Made by a program: the position numbers and the translations under genes. Positions 1-53,692 of a DNA stretch of 64,000 nucleotides are shown one piece after another (positions within the stretch are counted from its first letter, which is position 1; every line of letters starts with the position of its first letter). The notes beneath the pieces are model-generated. The model worked only from the letters and a program-made list of their open reading frames with translations. It was not told where the DNA came from and did not search any database. Source of the DNA: Tropicimonas isoalkanivorans (GTDB taxonomy: Bacteria > Pseudomonadota > Alphaproteobacteria > Rhodobacterales > Rhodobacteraceae); contig NZ_FOLG01000001.1 of the NCBI RefSeq assembly GCF_900112335.1, positions 248,001 to 312,000 on the forward strand, given 5' to 3'.

Positions 1-1317
1 CTGCACGTTGTTGTTGGTGTTCTGGATGTAGGTGAACTGGATGTTCTGCGAGATCGCCTGAACCTTGGCCTCATAGCCGAGCTCGTTCAGGACGTCTTGC
101 AGGTACACCCCGATCGCACGCGAGACGGTGTTGTCTTCGGCAATGATCGTCACTTCCTGCCCGGCCGTGCCGGATTCGGCCACCAGCGCCTTGGCCTTCT
201 CCATGTCCGGCGCGGACCAGGTGTCGCCCCCGCCTGCGGTATAAGGGCAGTAGGGCTCGTAGGAGGGGAACCCCGGCGGCAGGATCTGGCAAGCCGGCTG
301 GGCGAGGTTGCTACCGCCGAAGAGCTTCACGACGGCAGAACGGTCGATGGCATAGTTCACCGCCTGACGCACGCGGACGTCGTCGAAGGGCGCCAGGTTG
401 GTGTTCATCGGCGCGTACCACATCGCCGTCAGTGGATGCACGGACGCCTGGTCGGCGTACGTCGTCCCAATCTCGGCCAGACGGTCCGGCGGGGGCGGGT
501 CGAACATCCAGTCCGCCTGCCCGTTCTGGATCGCCGTGACGGCCGCCTCTTCGGTCAGGCCGAAGTCGTAGTCGATCTCGTCGGGGTATCCGGCCGGCTG
601 TGCCTCGGCGCTCCATTCCTCGAAGTGCGGGTTGCGGACCATCTTGAGCCGCTCGTTGGGATTGTAGCTCTCGATCATGTAGGGCCCCGTGCCCGGAACC
701 GGTTCGGTGCCCATATCCTTGATCGGGGTCTCGGCGGGCAGGATCGCGGCATGCGGAATCGCGATCTTCTGCAGGAATTCGCCGTCCGGCTCGGTCAAAT
801 TGATGGTAATCGTGAAGGCTTCCTCGTCGATCACCACGCCGCCGTCGAGCGTGCAGTCCGCAGGCGCGGCGAGACATTCATCCGCCCCCACGATCCCGTT
901 GTAGAAGGTGCCGGCAGTGGGGCCGGAGACCTTGAAGATCCGCTGGAACGAGGCAAGCACGTCTTCCGGCGTCACGTCGGACCCGTCGGCGAACTTCAGA
1001 CCCTTGCGAAGTTGGAAGGTATAGGTCTTCCCGCCATCCTCGGGCTCCGGAAGCGTTTCCGCGAGGTCGGCGACCACGTCGAAACCGGTCTCGTCCCCTG
1101 CCTTCTTGAAGGTCACGAGGCCGTCGTAGAGGATGTAGTTGATCTGAAAATACTGCAGTGTGTAGTTGATGTGCGGGTCGATCGTTCCCGCCGCGGCCTT
1201 GGCCAGCAGGCGGAGCGTGCCTCCCGGCGTGCCCTGTGCCCCGGCTGGCGCAGCAGTCGCGAAGACCGCCAGCGCGATGCCGGATGTGAGGGCGGCGAAA
1301 GATGTCCTGTTCTTCAT
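1..1317 (-). CDS. Peptide-type ABC transporter substrate-binding protein (SBP family 5), partial
   Basis: Periplasmic binding protein of a dipeptide/oligopeptide/nickel-type ABC importer. The gene starts at the ATG at 1317 and leaves the window at base 1 after 439 codons, so the C-terminus is missing. The N-terminus is a classic Sec signal peptide: Lys-Asn-Arg, a hydrophobic stretch, then an AGA-Q cleavage site near residue 28. Family-5 signatures follow in order: GTIDPHINYTLQYFQI, the KGLKFADGSDVTPEDV block, VPGTGPYMIESYNP and VRQAVNYAIDR. The permease and ATPase genes would be expected beyond the left edge. It is divergent from the LuxR solo at 1640, and such peptide importers accompany PipR-type LuxR solos in other bacteria, so it may bring in the inducer. 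Family assignment is secure; the substrate is inferred. Confidence 0.9.
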   Translation of the reverse strand, partial: MKNRTSFAALTSGIALAVFATAAPAGAQGTPGGTLRLLAKAAAGTIDPHINYTLQYFQINYILYDGLVTFKKAGDETGFDVVADLAETLPEPEDGGKTYTFQLRKGLKFADGSDVTPEDVLASFQRIFKVSGPTAGTFYNGIVGADECLAAPADCTLDGGVVIDEEAFTITINLTEPDGEFLQKIAIPHAAILPAETPIKDMGTEPVPGTGPYMIESYNPNERLKMVRNPHFEEWSAEAQPAGYPDEIDYDFGLTEEAAVTAIQNGQADWMFDPPPPDRLAEIGTTYADQASVHPLTAMWYAPMNTNLAPFDDVRVRQAVNYAIDRSAVVKLFGGSNLAQPACQILPPGFPSYEPYCPYTAGGGDTWSAPDMEKAKALVAESGTAGQEVTIIAEDNTVSRAIGVYLQDVLNELGYEAKVQAISQNIQFTYIQNTNNNVQ

Positions 1318-1451
1318 TCCCATTCCCCTGTTGATGTGCGTGCGCCGCGCGTTCTTTCCCGGCGCGGCTTCATTGTCGTGTCCCGTCAGCGCGAGCAAAG
1401 GCAACTCGGAGCACCGCGAGTGCCGCACCCGCCTTTCACAGACCGCGCGAC

Positions 1452-1464
1452 TACCTTGAAGGTA
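1452..1464. promoter_or_regulatory. Perfect 13-bp dyad between SBP gene and luxR solo
   Basis: TACCTT-G-AAGGTA is a perfect inverted repeat around one central base, lying in the 322-bp divergent gap about 135 bp upstream of the SBP start. It could be an operator for the adjacent LuxR solo or another regulator. No binding protein can be assigned from sequence alone. Confidence 0.35.
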
Positions 1465-1587
1465 TCGGTGCGCCTTTCGGGCTGTATAGCTATGGATTGT
1501 TATAGGTCCGGACAGCCCGTGTGCCGGGACCGCGCCCGTCGTCTGTTTATTGCGCATATGCGGGATCTCTGAGCAGAAATGCCGGGC

Positions 1588-1602
1588 CACAGGGGTCCTG
1601 TG
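1588..1602. promoter_or_regulatory. Lux-box-like dyad upstream of luxR solo
   Basis: CACAGG-GGT-CCTGTG is an inverted repeat (6-bp arms, 3-bp spacer) immediately upstream of a TTGACA hexamer at 1605-1610. If transcription starts near 1640, the dyad is centred near -45, a usual site for a LuxR-type activator. Autoregulation of the LuxR solo or control of the divergent SBP gene is inferred. Confidence 0.4.
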
Positions 1603-1604
1603 AA

Positions 1605-1633
1605 TTGACAAACGCGCTGACGTCCCGAAACCT
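1605..1633 (+). promoter_or_regulatory. Candidate sigma-70 promoter for luxR solo
   Basis: A consensus -35 hexamer TTGACA (1605-1610), a 17-bp spacer and a weak -10 AAACCT (1628-1633) predict a start near 1640. If real, translation would begin downstream at 1685 or 1703 rather than at 1640. Confidence 0.35.
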
Positions 1634-1639
1634 GTCTGC

Positions 1640-2404
1640 ATGGTTCAGGCTGAGATCATCAGGGAAGAAGCGTTCCATCCGGGCATGGCTCTGGAGGAGG
1701 CAATGGACGTCGCGCACCGACTACTGGGGCCGGCTGGCTTCGACATCGCCACCTATGACTATTCCCCCGTTCCGCTGACTCACGATGGGGAGTTCATCCT
1801 GCCGACCGTCTTCAGCCTGAGGGAAACGCCGCGGGACATGGAGCCGCTCTGGTGCAACAGCGGCTATTACAGCCGCGATCCGGTGATGGAGGCCGCGCGC
1901 GAAGTCACACGGCCCTTCACCTGGTCGCACGACGGTCGCCAGAGTGCCGTCATGCAGAAGATCTTGTCCGACCGCCACGCCCCGGTTGTGGAGTATCTTC
2001 TCGACACTGGCATGCGCAGCGGCATCACCGTCCCGATTCGTGGCCCTGGTGGATCCCTCGCGACGTTCAGCGCCATTCGTCTCGGCAGAGCCGACGACGC
2101 GGGCATGGAGGACTACTTGCCTGCCGTTGGGCATCTGGGCCATATCCTTCATGATGCGGTGTTTCCGGGATTCCCCGCCGACGCCCGGCGCACGTCCCAC
2201 GTGAGCTTAACCCCCCGGGAGCGGCAATGCATGATGCTGTGCGCCTCGGGCCTAACCACCAAGCAGATCGCCCACGAGATCGGCCGCTCCGTCCCAACGG
2301 TAACGCTGCATCTGACCTCGGCCGCGAACAAGCTCGGCGCACGGAACAGGGCCCATGCCCTCGCGCTGGCCGCGCACTACCGGCTGCTCGATCTGGACGC
2401 GTAA
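1640..2404 (+). CDS. LuxR-family solo regulator, plant-signal (OryR/PsoR/PipR) subfamily
   Basis: Transcriptional regulator with an N-terminal autoinducer-binding domain (about residues 20-170) and a C-terminal LuxR helix-turn-helix (about 190-250; LTPRERQCMMLCASGLTTKQ and the following recognition helix). Counting back from the conserved Asp of the RDP motif (TraR-type position 70), position 61 is Trp and position 57 is Met, in RDMEPLWCNSGYYSRDPV. This is the W57M/Y61W exchange that defines LuxR solos responding to plant compounds instead of acyl-homoserine lactones. FTWS keeps the Trp-85 equivalent. No luxI gene is visible. The longest ATG frame is given. An in-frame ATG at 1703 has a very strong Shine-Dalgarno (GGAGGAGG, 1693-1700), and ATG 1685 is also possible, giving 233 or 239 residues. 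The neighbour pip gene at 2511 fits the subfamily. Confidence 0.9.
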   Translation: MVQAEIIREEAFHPGMALEEAMDVAHRLLGPAGFDIATYDYSPVPLTHDGEFILPTVFSLRETPRDMEPLWCNSGYYSRDPVMEAAREVTRPFTWSHDGRQSAVMQKILSDRHAPVVEYLLDTGMRSGITVPIRGPGGSLATFSAIRLGRADDAGMEDYLPAVGHLGHILHDAVFPGFPADARRTSHVSLTPRERQCMMLCASGLTTKQIAHEIGRSVPTVTLHLTSAANKLGARNRAHALALAAHYRLLDLDA

Positions 2405-2471
2405 GCGCACGAGACCCCGGCACCCTATAAGATTCCCTAGCTGTCTGCACACATGCCCGCGCTGGTAGGTA

Positions 2472-2491
2472 TCCCAAAACGTCCATTGGGA
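2472..2491. promoter_or_regulatory. 20-bp inverted repeat in the pip leader
   Basis: TCCCAA, 8 bp, TTGGGA forms a 20-bp dyad ending 19 bp before the pip ATG. The length matches a lux box, but a TATAAG -10-like element at 2426-2431 would place it downstream of the transcription start. An mRNA hairpin or a repressor site is therefore as likely as an activator site. Confidence 0.35.
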
Positions 2492-2510
2492 ACCTCACAG
2501 GAGAGCGGAC

Positions 2511-3410
2511 ATGTGCGCCTACGATATTTCGACGGGGATTTCGCCGTACAACGGGTACGAAACCTGGTACCGCATCTGCGGCTCACTGGAGTCTGAAAAA
2601 CTGCCCCTCGTGGTGGTGCACGGCGGGCCGGGGTGTACCCATGACTACGTCGACAGCTTCAAGGCGCTCGCAGAAACCGGGCGGCCGGTCATTCATTACG
2701 ACCAGATTGGCAACGGCAAGTCCACGCACCTCCCCGAAAAGGGCGCGGACTTCTGGACCGTCGATTTCTTCCTTGGCGAACTCGACGCGCTGCTGACGCA
2801 CCTGGGAATCAAGGACCGCTATGCCTACCTCGGCCAAAGCTGGGGCGGGATGCTCGGCGCGGAACACGCAGTTCGCCAACCGGCGGGCCTGAAAGCGCTG
2901 GTGATCGCGAATTCGCCGGCCTCCATGGAGTTGTGGCTGGCGGGCGCAGCAAAGTTGAGAGCCCAGTTGCCAGCCGATGTTCAGGACGCGTTGACGAAAC
3001 ACGAAGTGGCGGGCACGACCGACGACGAGGAATACAAGCGCGCCGAGAAGGTCTTCAACGAGCGGCACGTGTGCCGGGTCGTCCCGATGCCGGCAGAGGT
3101 ACAGGCCACATTCGACGCGATGGAAGCGGACCCGACCGTGTATCACACGATGAATGGCCCGAACGAATTCCACGTGATCGGCACGATGAAGACGTGGTCT
3201 GTCATCGATCGGCTACCAAACATCACCGCGCCGACTCTCGCATTCCGTGGCCATTTTGATGAGGCGACTGAGGAATGCGTCCAGCCTTTCCTCGACCTCA
3301 TTCCCGACGTGACGGGACATGTCTTCCCGAATTCCAGCCACATGCCCCACGTCGAGGAGATGGACGATTGCATGGCGGTCGTGGAGGCTTTTTTGCGGAA
3401 GTACGACTGA
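2511..3410 (+). CDS. pip: Proline iminopeptidase / L-amino-acid amidase-type alpha/beta hydrolase
   Basis: Serine hydrolase of the S33 alpha/beta-hydrolase family, which releases N-terminal proline or other amino acids from small peptides and amides. Visible hallmarks: the oxyanion HGGPG motif (about residues 38-42), YDQIGNGKS, the nucleophile elbow GQSWGG (Ser near residue 110), an acid residue in FRGHFDEA, and the catalytic His in NSSHMPHVEE. At 299 residues it is full length. A good Shine-Dalgarno (AGGAGAG) precedes the ATG. It follows the LuxR solo in the same direction with a 106-bp gap, the order seen for the peptidase gene next to XccR/PsoR/PipR-type regulators. It probably processes the peptide or amide signal or its import product; the substrate is inferred. 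Confidence 0.88.
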   Translation: MCAYDISTGISPYNGYETWYRICGSLESEKLPLVVVHGGPGCTHDYVDSFKALAETGRPVIHYDQIGNGKSTHLPEKGADFWTVDFFLGELDALLTHLGIKDRYAYLGQSWGGMLGAEHAVRQPAGLKALVIANSPASMELWLAGAAKLRAQLPADVQDALTKHEVAGTTDDEEYKRAEKVFNERHVCRVVPMPAEVQATFDAMEADPTVYHTMNGPNEFHVIGTMKTWSVIDRLPNITAPTLAFRGHFDEATEECVQPFLDLIPDVTGHVFPNSSHMPHVEEMDDCMAVVEAFLRKYD

Positions 3411-6601: not shown

Positions 6602-7579
6602 TCAATTCCGTGCGGAGAAACGGCTGTCTTCGGTAACCTTCGTGCGTGATTGTGCGCGCAGCGCCGCCCCTTCGCAGATCGGGCCATAGTCACCGGGCTC
6701 GCGGTGCAACGCGAAATTGAACACGTTCTCCCGCAATTCGCGGCATCTGTCGAAATCGATTTCCGCGGTCGCGATTTCGTCGCCCAAGCCCTGCGTCCGG
6801 GCAATGATTTCTCCGGTTGGGGCGATAATGCAGCTGCCACCGATCAAGTCACACCCTTCTTCCCGTCCGGCTTTTGCCGTGCCGATCACCCAGCAACCAT
6901 TGGCATAGGCGCCGGCCTGCATGCTCAAGTGGTTATGAAAATCCTGCAGGTGATCATGTTCCGGGGCCTGCGGGTAGTGGACGGGCGTGTTGTAGCCAAG
7001 CATGACCAGTTCCGCGCCGCGCAGGCCGAGCACGCGGAATGTCTCCGGCCAGCGACGATCATTGCACAGGCACATTCCAAGCGTGCCGCCCATCGCGTCG
7101 AAAACGGGGAACCCGAGATCGCCATGTTCGAAATACCGTTTTTCAAGATGCTGGAACGGGCGCCATTCCTCAGGATTGAAATGGCCCGGAAGATGGACTT
7201 TGCGATATTTGCCCACGATTCTGCCGTCCCGATCCACGATGATCGACGTATTGAAGCGCCGTTTTGTATCCCCCTCGCGGACCAGTTCGGCATAGCCGAG
7301 GTAAAAGCCGATCCCAAGCCGGCGGGCGGCCTCGAAAAGCGGCTCAGTTTCCGGCCCCGGCATTTCGGACTCGAAAAAGCGATCCAGTTCCGCTTCATCC
7401 TCGATGTACCAGCGCGGGAAAAACGTCGTTAGGGCGAGTTCAGGAAACACCACCAACTCCGCACCTCGGCGGTGCGCCTTTTCCAGCAACGCAATGAGGC
7501 GGTTGACGGCGGACGCGCGAGCCTCGGAGCGCGCGATCGGCCCGAGTTGAGCGGTGGCGGCGACGATGGAACGGCTCAT
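6602..7579 (-). CDS. N-carbamoyl-D-amino-acid hydrolase (nitrilase superfamily)
   Basis: Cytoplasmic amidase hydrolysing N-carbamoyl-D-amino acids to the D-amino acid, CO2 and ammonia. The catalytic triad is visible: Glu in FPELALTTFFP (near 46), Lys in GKYRKVHLPG (near 126) and Cys in GMCLCNDRRWPE (near 171). Long stretches resemble the well-known Agrobacterium enzyme (DEAELDRFFESEMPGP, RRFNTSIIVDRDGRIVGKYR, PFQHLEKRYFE, EIATAEIDFDRCRELRE). ATG 7579 (MSRSIVAATAQLGPIARSEA) overlaps the stop of the upstream M20 gene as ATGA, indicating translational coupling. It is the last gene of the transporter-dpaL operon. The C-terminal tail is about 20 residues longer than the classical enzyme. Confidence 0.93.
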   Translation of the reverse strand: MSRSIVAATAQLGPIARSEARASAVNRLIALLEKAHRRGAELVVFPELALTTFFPRWYIEDEAELDRFFESEMPGPETEPLFEAARRLGIGFYLGYAELVREGDTKRRFNTSIIVDRDGRIVGKYRKVHLPGHFNPEEWRPFQHLEKRYFEHGDLGFPVFDAMGGTLGMCLCNDRRWPETFRVLGLRGAELVMLGYNTPVHYPQAPEHDHLQDFHNHLSMQAGAYANGCWVIGTAKAGREEGCDLIGGSCIIAPTGEIIARTQGLGDEIATAEIDFDRCRELRENVFNFALHREPGDYGPICEGAALRAQSRTKVTEDSRFSARN

Positions 7580-8826
7580 GCGGTCTGTCCTTCCGGCTGC
7601 ACCACACAAGCGCGTTCCAACGCCACCTCGGCCAGGAGCCGGACGCCGTTGGCGAGATCTTCTGGTGCGGTAAATTCGTGAATGTTATGGCTGATCCCGC
7701 CCTGCGATGGCACGAAGATCATGGCAGAGGGGCAATTGGGCGCAAACATCTGAGCGTCATGCCCGGCGCCCGACGGCATCTTGCGGTGGCTTAGGCCAAG
7801 CCGGACAGCCCCGGACACAATCTGATCGACGAGATCGGTGTCAAAGGCCACAGGTTCAAAACGGGCAAGTGTTTGACGGGCGAGCGTGCACCCTTCGGCC
7901 GAAGCAAGTTCCTCCGCAGTCTCGAAGAGACGTTTCTCTGCGGCCTTGAGCGTTGCCTCGTCAGTATGGCGTAAGTCCACCGTCAGCACAGCTTGCTCCG
8001 GGACAACATTCACCAGATCCGGCGTGAAAGACATCCGGCCGACTGTGGCCACCTGAGGCGGACCGAAGTCGCGGGCGATCGCGCGGGCTTCCGTGGCGAT
8101 GGCGGCGGCAACGGCCCCGGCGTCACGGCGCAGTGCCATCGGAGTGGTGCCCGCGTGGGACGATCGGCCGGAGATTGTGAACTCGGTCCATGAAATGCCC
8201 TGAACCCCCGTGACGACCCCGATTTCCAGACATTCGCTTTCCAAAACCGGACCCTGCTCGATGTGCAACTCCAGATAGGCCGACGGCGTCAACGCCCCAA
8301 CGGGTTCCGATCCCCGGGCACCAATGGCATCGAGCGCGTCGCCGACGCTTTTTCCATCAATGCCGACCTTGCCGAGCATCTCTCCAAGCTCCAACCCACC
8401 CTGGCTTACGCCGGACCCCATCATGTCGGGTGCGAAACGTGCGCCCTCCTCGTTGGTGAAGAACGCCACAGCGAGCGGATACTCGGTGTCGATCCCCGCG
8501 TCGATCACGCTCTCGATCACCTCAAGGCCCCCCAACACACCCAGGACACCATCATAAAGGCCACCGGTTGCAACGGTGTCGATATGCGACCCCAGGACCA
8601 GCGGTGGCAAGTGCTTACGTCCCCTGCGAATGGCCCAGGTGTTGCCAATGACGTCGGTGTGAATTTCCAGTCCGAGTGTGCGGAACCAACCGGTCACCAG
8701 CGCCCGGCCCTCCGCGTCCTCGGCGCTCAGGGCCAGCCGCTTGCAACCGCCGCCGGGAAGGGCACCGATACGCCCAAGCTGATCGATCCGGGAGAGGAGC
8801 CGTTCGGTGTTGATGTGAACGTTCAT
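7576..8826 (-). CDS. M20-family Zn amidohydrolase (N-carbamoyl-L-amino-acid hydrolase / allantoate amidohydrolase type)
   Basis: 416-residue dinuclear-metal hydrolase of the HyuC/AmaB/AllC group, acting on ureido or carbamoyl substrates. Metal ligands are visible in VLGSHIDTVATGGLYDGVLG, FTNEEGARFAPDMMGSG, LELHIEQGPVLE and, near the C-terminus, GGISHNIHEFT. SSHAGTTPMALRRDAG forms the dimerisation-domain hinge. The ATG at 8826 overlaps the dpaL stop (ATGA), and the gene's own stop overlaps the D-carbamoylase start. Pairing with a diaminopropionate ammonia-lyase and a D-carbamoylase suggests removal of a carbamoyl group from an amino-acid derivative. Sequence reading cannot separate L-carbamoylase, beta-ureidopropionase and allantoate amidohydrolase. 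Confidence 0.9.
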   Translation of the reverse strand: MNVHINTERLLSRIDQLGRIGALPGGGCKRLALSAEDAEGRALVTGWFRTLGLEIHTDVIGNTWAIRRGRKHLPPLVLGSHIDTVATGGLYDGVLGVLGGLEVIESVIDAGIDTEYPLAVAFFTNEEGARFAPDMMGSGVSQGGLELGEMLGKVGIDGKSVGDALDAIGARGSEPVGALTPSAYLELHIEQGPVLESECLEIGVVTGVQGISWTEFTISGRSSHAGTTPMALRRDAGAVAAAIATEARAIARDFGPPQVATVGRMSFTPDLVNVVPEQAVLTVDLRHTDEATLKAAEKRLFETAEELASAEGCTLARQTLARFEPVAFDTDLVDQIVSGAVRLGLSHRKMPSGAGHDAQMFAPNCPSAMIFVPSQGGISHNIHEFTAPEDLANGVRLLAEVALERACVVQPEGQTA

Positions 8827-10861: not shown

Positions 10862-11724
10862 CAGGCGCCGTCCGAAACCAGAGTGGCTCGGCGGATCGCA
10901 AGCGCGCCCGCTCCGAAACAGAACATCAGGATCGCCAGCATGGTCCACGCTATGGCCGAGCCGAGCGGCCAGTCGAACGCGGTGCCGAACAGATCGTTGA
11001 CAGCCGATATGATCGTGACGCCCGAAGCGCCGCCCAACAATTGCGGGGTCAGATAGTCCCCTGCAACCATGACGAAGACCATCAGCCCTCCCGCAATCAG
11101 ACCGGGCACGGTGAGCGGCAATGTTACCCGCCGGAAACGATCCACGGCTGGGGCGCCGAGATCGGCCGCCGCCTCGATCCAGGCGTCATCGAGACTCTCA
11201 AAGGCGAGCCAAAGACCAATGACCATGAACGGGAGGTAGTTGTAGGTGAGCGCGATATGGGTTGCGAGCGGGCTGAAGAGCAGCCCTGCCAGCGGCTCCG
11301 TCGTCACACCCAACCACATGAGAGTGCGGTTGATCGCACCTTCCGCCCCCAGGAGCACCCGCCAGGCGAACACGCGAACGAGGTCGCCCGAATAGAGCGG
11401 CACCAGCAGCAGCGTCAGCAATGTGGACTTTGCCGTCGTAACCCGCTTGGCAATGAACCATGCAACCGGGTAGCCGATGATGGCAGTGATCGCGACGACG
11501 AGCATCGCCGAGCCGAAGGCGCGCGCAATAAGGTTCCGGTACGTCTCTGACCCGGCGATCTTGGCATAGTTGGCAAAGGTCGGCTCGCGCGAGATGGCGA
11601 CGAAGTCGACCTGGAAGAAGCTGTACGCGAACAGGATCAGCAGCGGCGCCACGCAAAGCGCGAAGAGAGCCGCGACGACGGGCAGCGACAACCAATTTCC
11701 GATCCGTCCAGGCAGTACGGCCAT
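10861..11724 (-). CDS. ABC transporter permease, spermidine/putrescine (PotB) type
   Basis: 287-residue inner-membrane permease. It opens with an N-terminal helix VVAALFALCVAPLLILFAYS and carries the EAA loop WIEAAADLGAPAVDRFRRVT. VRVFAWRVLLGAEGAIN and MVAGDYLTPQLLGG are typical of PotB/PotH proteins. The start chosen is ATG 11724 ([11 protein letters not shown]), which overlaps the ATPase stop as TGATG; the longer upstream frame is antisense overlap. Together with the PotC-like gene it forms the channel of the importer. Confidence 0.9.
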   Translation of the reverse strand: MAVLPGRIGNWLSLPVVAALFALCVAPLLILFAYSFFQVDFVAISREPTFANYAKIAGSETYRNLIARAFGSAMLVVAITAIIGYPVAWFIAKRVTTAKSTLLTLLLVPLYSGDLVRVFAWRVLLGAEGAINRTLMWLGVTTEPLAGLLFSPLATHIALTYNYLPFMVIGLWLAFESLDDAWIEAAADLGAPAVDRFRRVTLPLTVPGLIAGGLMVFVMVAGDYLTPQLLGGASGVTIISAVNDLFGTAFDWPLGSAIAWTMLAILMFCFGAGALAIRRATLVSDGA

Positions 11725-12827
11725 CAGGCCGCCCTTTGGTCGGCGGCGGCGGCCCATGCCCGGGCCGGATCGAAGCTCACATGGACGTCGGTTCCCGGCG
11801 GCGGCGGAGACGAGGTTGCCGTGACTTGCACCAGTTGTCCGGCGATCTCGCATTCCACGATCCAGTCGGAGCCGCGGAAGACACAATGCGTCACACGGGC
11901 TGGAATGCCGGCATCCGCCAGCGACAGGTTCTCGGGTCGCAGGCACAGCACCGCGGGCGCGCCACCGGTGAGCGTCGCTACGCCGTGAACCCTGTGCTTG
12001 CCAAGCGGCGTGTCGAGCGTGACCTCATCGCCATTTCGCTCCAGGGTCAGTGCCGGAACGCAGGCCGCTCCACCGATGAAGTCTGCAACGTAAGCGGTGC
12101 GTGGCCGGGCGTAGATATCTTCCGGTCTGCCCTGTTGCTCGATCCGGCCGTCACGCATGACGATGATCCGGTCAGAGAGCGCAAAGGCCTCTTCTTGATC
12201 GTGGGTCACGTGGAGAAATGACATGCCGAGGCGGCGTTGAAGATCCTTGAGTTCGATCTGCATATCCTTGCGCATCCGTCGGTCGAGAGCCGACAAGGGT
12301 TCATCAAGCAGCAGCAAACGTGGTGCGTTGACAATCGCACGCGCAAGCGCAACCCGCTGCTGTTGCCCTCCAGACAACTGGCGCGGCCGACGGTCCGCCA
12401 TCGCGTCCATCTGGACGATTTCCAACGCATGCAGAGCGCGGGGACGGATTTCGGACCTGGGAATTTCCCGATAGCTCAGTCCGAAGGCAACGTTCTCCAC
12501 CACGGACAGGTGAGGAAACAGCGCATAGTTCTGGAACACGGTATTGATCGGCCGTTTCGCGGCGGGGATCTCGTCGAGACGTGCGCCATCGAGGGTCAGG
12601 GCACCGGACGTCACCTCCTCGAACCCACCGATCATCCGCAGGATGGAGGTTTTGCCGCATCCCGAAGGGCCAAGCAGGGTGACGTAGCTGTTCTCGGCCA
12701 GCGCGAAATCAACGCCGGATACGGCTTCAACCTTGCCGTAGCTCTTGTATAGCCCCTTGGCCTCAAGAAGCGGCCGCCGGGGACGGCCGCTCTCCTCCGA
12801 TTCAGCCCGACGTTCAGGCGTCGTCAT
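11724..12827 (-). CDS. ABC transporter ATP-binding protein, spermidine/putrescine (PotA) type
   Basis: 367-residue ATPase that powers the PotB/PotC-like permeases. The nucleotide-binding domain occupies about residues 20-255: Walker [11 protein letters not shown]-loop [12 protein letters not shown], signature [14 protein letters not shown], Walker [13 protein letters not shown], and H-loop His in [12 protein letters not shown]-terminal TOBE domain (about 285-360, [14 protein letters not shown]) is the regulatory part typical of this group. It is separated from the upstream binding-protein gene by a single base, so all genes of the importer are expressed as one unit. Confidence 0.93.
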
Positions 12828-53203: not shown

Positions 53204-53376
53204 TAGTATTTGCCCCCACCGGCGCAAGCCCCCAAACCGCCGGAATTGCCGCACAGGGCGGCTTCGGCACGCGGGCCAAGGGGCGCGGGTTCAGCGCCAC
53301 CGCGCCCGTTCAACACCGCAAAATTCAGCAGTTCCCACTTCCAATCCCGCGGCGGGCGGCCTATTTATACGATGTT

Positions 53377-53692
53377 CCTTCGGGGACTATGGCGATAAAC
53401 GCGCTCGTAATAAGCGGCTCGGACCCGGGGGCGGTACCCGGCGGCTCCACCAAATATCCCGCATTGGGGGATCAGGGGGCCGAAACAGGATCGACGGACG
53501 TCTAAAGGGGTTAGCTTTTGCCCGGTGAGGTACCACCGTTATCGGTCCAAGCATGATAGTTGCCAATGACAACCGTGCTCCGGTGGCCGTTGCTGCGTAA
53601 GCAGTAACCAAACCGAAATCTTAAGCCCAGGCCTCTAGCAAGGTCTGGCGGGGTTCGCAGGCACCTGGCAACAGAAGCCTGCACTTCCTTCC
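53377..53692 (+). ncRNA. ssrA: tmRNA, circularly permuted two-piece (alpha type)
   Basis: The acceptor piece comes first and ends at 53452 with GGCTCCACCA; its T-arm is CCGGG-GGCGGTA-CCCGG. After a 23-base intervening stretch the coding piece begins at 53476 with GGGGCCGAAACAGGATCGAC. GGGGCCG pairs with CGGCTCC, including the G3-U70 alanine identity pair. The tag frame (GCC at 53562 to TAA at 53600) gives, with the first Ala, AANDNRAPVAVAA, ending in the ClpXP-recognised AA. Outer ends are approximate: a TTTATA -10-like box at 53364 fits a start near 53377, and the PK-like CAGGC/GCCTG helix ends near 53682. It rescues stalled ribosomes. Confidence 0.92.

Follow-up and report, generated by a model that had tools for sequence, protein, structure and literature searches.

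What does a LuxR-type receptor sense when it lies between a peptidase gene and a divergent peptide-type importer? The question is raised by the first 3.4 kb of a 64,000-nucleotide stretch of Tropicimonas isoalkanivorans DNA (the window; G000:C15:248001-312000, in a genome of 4.98 Mb), which hold luxR, pip downstream of it, and a divergent gene for a family-5 binding protein that crosses the left edge. The genes, the pocket residues of the LuxR protein, its kinship with PAB solos, two dyads flanking luxR, and an importer that is not of the AapF type are established at the level of sequence. We propose as the likely reading that these parts form a PAB-type sensing cassette, in which an imported compound other than an acyl-homoserine lactone (AHL) would bind LuxR, and LuxR would activate the importer and pip. 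The elements of the locus, those outside the window being given by their L008 coordinates, are:

1640..2404, plus strand: luxR, a PAB-type LuxR solo (Autoind_bind and GerE; Met/Trp at TraR positions 57/61), identified by domains, alignments, tree and structure model
2511..3410, plus strand: pip, a proline iminopeptidase-family hydrolase, identified by TIGR01250 and the nearest solved chain
2423..2442, plus strand: dyad CCCTATAAGATTCCCTAGCT, candidate operator for LuxR control of pip, centred 78.5 bases upstream of the pip ATG
2466..2471, plus strand: TAGGTA, 23 bases past the dyad, a possible -10 hexamer for pip
1488..1507, minus strand: dyad ACCTATAACAATCCATAGCT, candidate operator for LuxR control of the importer operon
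1459..1464, minus strand: TACCTT, 23 bases past the dyad, a possible -10 hexamer for the importer operon
1..1323 and about 345 bases further left (L008 13656-15323), minus strand: gene of the solute-binding protein (SBP_bac_5), which probably starts at 1323
L008 12545-13585 and about 11571-12557: two permease genes (BPD_transp_1, one with OppC_N)
L008 10574-11581 and 9564-10577: two ATPase genes (ABC_tran and oligo_HPY)

A LuxR solo of the PAB type

The luxR open reading frame encodes 254 amino acids with an Autoind_bind domain (85 bits) and a GerE domain (54.9 bits), both above cut-off. A structure model of the protein (pLDDT 91.8) has full-length LuxR-type receptors as its top fold matches (best 2q0o, E 2.6e-13, TM 0.46-0.49). 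In a phmmer alignment to TraR (1h0m), anchored by a common D-P-V motif and the Trp at 85, M67 falls on W57 and W71 on Y61; a multiple alignment concurs, and together they confirm the Met/Trp pair that the original prediction had placed at positions 57 and 61 of the autoinducer domain. In TraR numbering, the pocket carries the PAB residues Met57, Trp61, Val101 and Leu105, and lacks the Trp57 and Tyr61 that mark AHL-responsive receptors. A specificity patch of Gln73, Val101 and Leu/Met105 is reported to be highly conserved, but not defining, in PAB solos (PMC7301841; here and below, papers are cited from the excerpts available). The window LuxR departs from this patch at position 73, where it has Met.

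For comparison, relatives were drawn from three sources: 394 genomes of the family (nine matches at 1e-30, own genome included), plasmids (153 records, all below 60% identity, from which six regions were taken), and GTDB contigs (the best 80 of 247 relatives). The final set holds 94 distinct loci, one (L026) having been dropped as the same locus as L011, and its counts reflect likeness to the window's LuxR as the selection rule, not natural frequencies. Positions 57/61 read Met/Trp in 76 loci, Trp/Trp in 15 (all Pseudomonas) and Leu/Trp in three. Residue 73 is Met in 7/7 rows of the window's own branch; the remaining 87 of the 94 have Gln.

We built a tree from 63 PAB rows (31 further near-copies removed) and eight contrast rows, namely TraR twice, stretches of LasR and QscR, and four other LuxR proteins of the own genome, among which only L001 is known to adjoin a luxI. 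The PAB rows, the window LuxR among them, separate from the contrast rows at 97/97, with a long-branch warning that applies to the eight contrast rows. OryR, XccR and NesR themselves lie outside the tree; the Kosakonia relative L079 falls inside the same PAB clade. The nearest partner of the window LuxR is that of genome G255 (100/98), and the two are joined next by a metagenome-assembled genome (MAG), Cohaesibacter and a Rhodobacteraceae MAG (100/95). Further out follow genome G239 (100/98) and Oceanicella (99/95), and the enclosing branch has Mesorhizobium and Aureimonas (100/99). The window LuxR is an OryR/PipR-type (PAB) solo, as had been claimed.

The genome as a whole holds seven Autoind_bind matches and two LuxI matches, the latter being the one point that would favor an AHL receptor responding to the genome's own LuxI enzymes. 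Both LuxI matches are on other contigs (C30 and C31), and no luxI adjoins the window luxR, though the genome itself has luxI. On the residues at 57/61 (Met/Trp) and 101/105 (Val/Leu), together with membership in the PAB clade, we rejected the AHL receptor reading and regard it as highly improbable. Separately, two LuxR-domain genes lie near a LuxI match at about 140,872-142,642 of C31 (L005, L007, L025), a quorum-sensing-like cluster of its own.

Among described systems, the Met57/Trp61 solos OryR, XccR, NesR and PsrR resemble the window in that residue pair, in the adjoining pip, in the pocket positions and in a dyad before pip. They differ from it in that the window LuxR has Met73 rather than Gln and in that its importer is of another type. 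The original prediction described the family as known mostly from plant-associated Pseudomonas, Xanthomonas and rhizobia. A 2015 survey already assigns Rhodobacter, Citreicella and Mesorhizobium to the XccR/OryR group (W57M, Y61W; PMC4338825), and a 2023 review places Rhodobacter in 'subgroup 0' (PMC10134790). This setting of the PAB circuit is already known, and what is new here is the importer type.

A divergent branch of the family appears in other family genomes (L015, L016, L017), where a short LuxR with Leu/Trp at 57/61 adjoins a pip-like gene; no binding-protein match was found within these short loci.

Importer type and its apparent exchange

The pip product matches TIGR01250, the proline iminopeptidase family, at 251.7 bits (cut-off 167.65), and its nearest solved chain is 7a6g, 'Putative Proline iminopeptidase' (418 bits). 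A pip match is present at 93 of 94 loci, the sole exception being L029, where the contig ends. On the other side of luxR, the part of the binding protein inside the window scores 228.6 bits against SBP_bac_5. Both flanking genes are thereby as originally described, and the test then named, a search for transporter genes past the left edge, came out in favor: two permeases and two ATPases directly follow the binding protein. The operon is complete, with five genes in one direction in the order binding protein, permease, permease, ATPase, ATPase.

The window's importer differs from that of PipR. Against AapF, the solved importer protein of the PipR system, the window's binding protein scores 51.9 bits, versus 762.6 bits for one from Rahnella. 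Grouped at 40% identity, 88 binding proteins from the loci form a set of 61 that includes the Rahnella protein, a set of 24 that includes the window's, and three single members. The window's protein shows 60-88% identity to the other members of its set, against 22-27% to the AapF-type set.

Importer type does not follow LuxR descent. On a 60-row LuxR tree the type switches four times, with at least three switches forced by well-supported branches, and a constraint uniting the 16 LuxR proteins with window-type importers (L014 omitted) is rejected (p-AU 0.0002). Even among close LuxR kin of the window, the importer is of the AapF type in L028 and L029 and of a third kind in L027. Because the type changes on the LuxR tree and among these kin, importers have evidently been swapped beneath a retained sensor and pip. 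Residue 73 was considered as a marker of importer type and rejected: L028 and L029 combine Met73 with the AapF type, and Mesorhizobium combines Gln73 with the window type. No account of two importer types in PAB circuits was found in the literature searched, subscription papers lying outside that search.

The parallel with Pseudomonas sp. GM79, where the original prediction saw the same layout, is a loose one. Its PipR/Aap system shares the LuxR solo, pip and a five-gene importer. It differs in that PipR keeps Trp57 (PMC4981722, PMC7301841) where the window LuxR has Met57, in an extra alanine aminopeptidase gene (aapA) between pipR and the transporter genes (PMC4981722), and in its AapF-type importer. 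The closest layout match is instead found in 12/12 loci of the Mesorhizobium group and in Oceanicella sp. SM1341 (L026), where ATPase, ATPase, permease, permease and binding protein genes stand divergent from luxR-pip, as in the window. In these loci the binding protein is 74-80% and the LuxR 55-64% identical to the window's; the Mesorhizobium group differs in having Gln73 at 12/12 loci.

One further locus, L014 (genome G046), has a distant Met/Trp LuxR (about 33% identical) adjoining a window-type binding protein (60%), with no dyad at score 9. It is perhaps an independent pairing of the window's importer type with a PAB LuxR.

Putative operators on both sides of luxR

Each of the two gaps flanking luxR holds one 20-base dyad of the form ACCTAT-N9-TAGCT. 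A perfect-dyad search first gave scattered candidates, after which this form was picked by eye and counted against shuffles. A dyad scoring at least 9/10 occurs in 36/76 luxR-pip gaps (shuffles 0.68, maximum 3) and in 75/94 stretches before luxR (shuffles 1.56, maximum 5), although the shuffles overstate independence, since the loci are related and the consensus was picked with the same data already in view. A sign independent of that choice is the spacing to a hexamer TANNNT, which lies 21-23 bases past the dyad at 37/39 pip-side and 51/85 other-side sites, and at other spacings at no more than 2/39 and 6/85 sites per three-offset window. The window's importer-side hexamer, TACCTT, fits the pattern. 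Given this spacing, the expected position of the dyad relative to the transcription start would be about -43 to -45; LuxR-type activators with this geometry overlap the -35 element.

A strict form of the pattern, allowing at most one mismatch, matches the own genome twice, each time beside luxR, with no third place. It occurs at 2, 2 and 1 places in genomes G255, G263 and G239, so that in all four genomes with a close LuxR (4/4, own included) every such place adjoins luxR. The strict pattern was not found in G046 or G007, and reversed-pattern controls in these five other genomes gave 0-2 hits each.

The Pseudomonas GM79 system requires an inverted repeat upstream of pipA (PMC4981722), which supports an operator at this position; the distance to pip is about 71.5 bases in that system (PMC4981722) and 78.5 in the window. 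The 'pip box' of Kosakonia KO348 (PMC7301841) resembles a stretch in K. oryzendophytica L079 that overlaps the hexamer downstream of the dyad, which suggests that the dyad is the better operator candidate.

Several observations weigh against a circuit operated through these dyads. No score-9 dyad precedes luxR at 19/94 loci, including L027 and L028, which are among the window's nearest kin. A loose-score search of the whole window gave three hits at two places, where shuffles gave 1.2 on average and 4 at most, so the number of dyads is not above chance and the evidence lies in their position. The pip-side hexamer TAGGTA is one of the two misses of strict TANNNT among the 39 sites. The reversed strict pattern, as a control, gave one hit in the own genome; moreover, the match of the strict pattern to these sites is built in, since they and related sites were its source, and looser targets elsewhere would escape it. 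Finally, a study of Kosakonia found no PsrR-dependent pip activity (PMC7301841).

The proposed circuit and the compound sensed

In the proposed circuit, the binding protein would catch a small compound that is not an AHL, possibly a peptide or amine derivative; the OppBCDF-like importer would bring it in, and LuxR would bind it. LuxR would then bind one dyad before pip and one before the importer operon and activate both, the extra importer providing positive feedback. By trimming or destroying the compound, Pip may switch the signal off. We infer, beyond the sequence itself, that LuxR binds a ligand, that the dyads serve as operators, that activation and feedback occur, and what the compound is. 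The circuit is supported by Pseudomonas GM79, where PipR needs its importer and loss of the peptidase strengthens the response (PMC4981722).

What the compound might be can be weighed from the importer and from the carriers. The locus might instead serve to sense and scavenge food oligopeptides, perhaps proline-containing ones, with no host signalling, and we give this somewhat less than an even chance. A peptide-type importer with oligo_HPY ATPases beside an iminopeptidase would suit it, as would the solved chain that the binding protein matches best, named a peptide ABC transporter binding protein (206.7 bits), and the response of PipR to peptone and a tripeptide (PMC4981722). On the other hand, this family of solute-binding proteins also binds non-peptides, and the strongest known PipR ligand is an ethanolamine derivative (PMC10134790, PMC7301841).

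That same peptone and tripeptide response counts against a receptor specific to plants or algae, tuned to a ligand from a photosynthetic host with which the bacterium lives. Plant material does trigger the best-studied family members (PMC10134790, PMC4981722), and among the relatives are rhizobia and isolates named after leaves or roots. Yet several carriers have names that allude to aquatic or saline surroundings (Oceanicella, Cohaesibacter haloalkalitolerans, Zavarzinia aquatilis, Salinicola aestuarinus), the importer is unlike PipR's, and few genera of the family carry the locus, with a LuxR at least 60% identical in 4/394 family genomes, own included. We consider this explanation unlikely. 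The original prediction had suggested association with a plant or alga; such a lifestyle is possible, but gene presence alone makes for a doubtful inference and does not establish it. Literature listings gave no answer on habitat for the strains of the nearest named carriers.

Returning to the sensing cassette, we tentatively suggest a fixed core of sensor, operator and peptidase served by varied importers. The non-AapF type of Rhodobacterales, Mesorhizobium and Aurantimonadaceae would then indicate another class of compound, perhaps not from plants, within a closed circuit that would act on nothing but pip and its own importer. The ligand of PipR does not suit every PAB solo. A protein closely homologous to the importer of HEHEAA is reported not to bind this compound (PMC10134790). 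If importers were exchanged while sensor, operator and peptidase stayed, importer type would offer a handle on the compound sensed in each branch, and the two-dyad signature a ready reporter.

The surroundings of the locus were also compared. The one other genome shown as the same genus in the family set had no LuxR match. The left sugar-transport neighbour was found in 0/4 other genomes, an empty answer that carries no weight without a positive control, and the right AraC neighbour had a match in 1/4, on contigs different from that of luxR. Within the window, adjoining genes for a carbon-nitrogen hydrolase and an M20-family peptidase/amidase (6602-8826, minus strand) may form a small cluster for amide degradation not far from the locus. 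A tmRNA gene was called at 53357-53691, with the tag ANDNRAPVAVAA.

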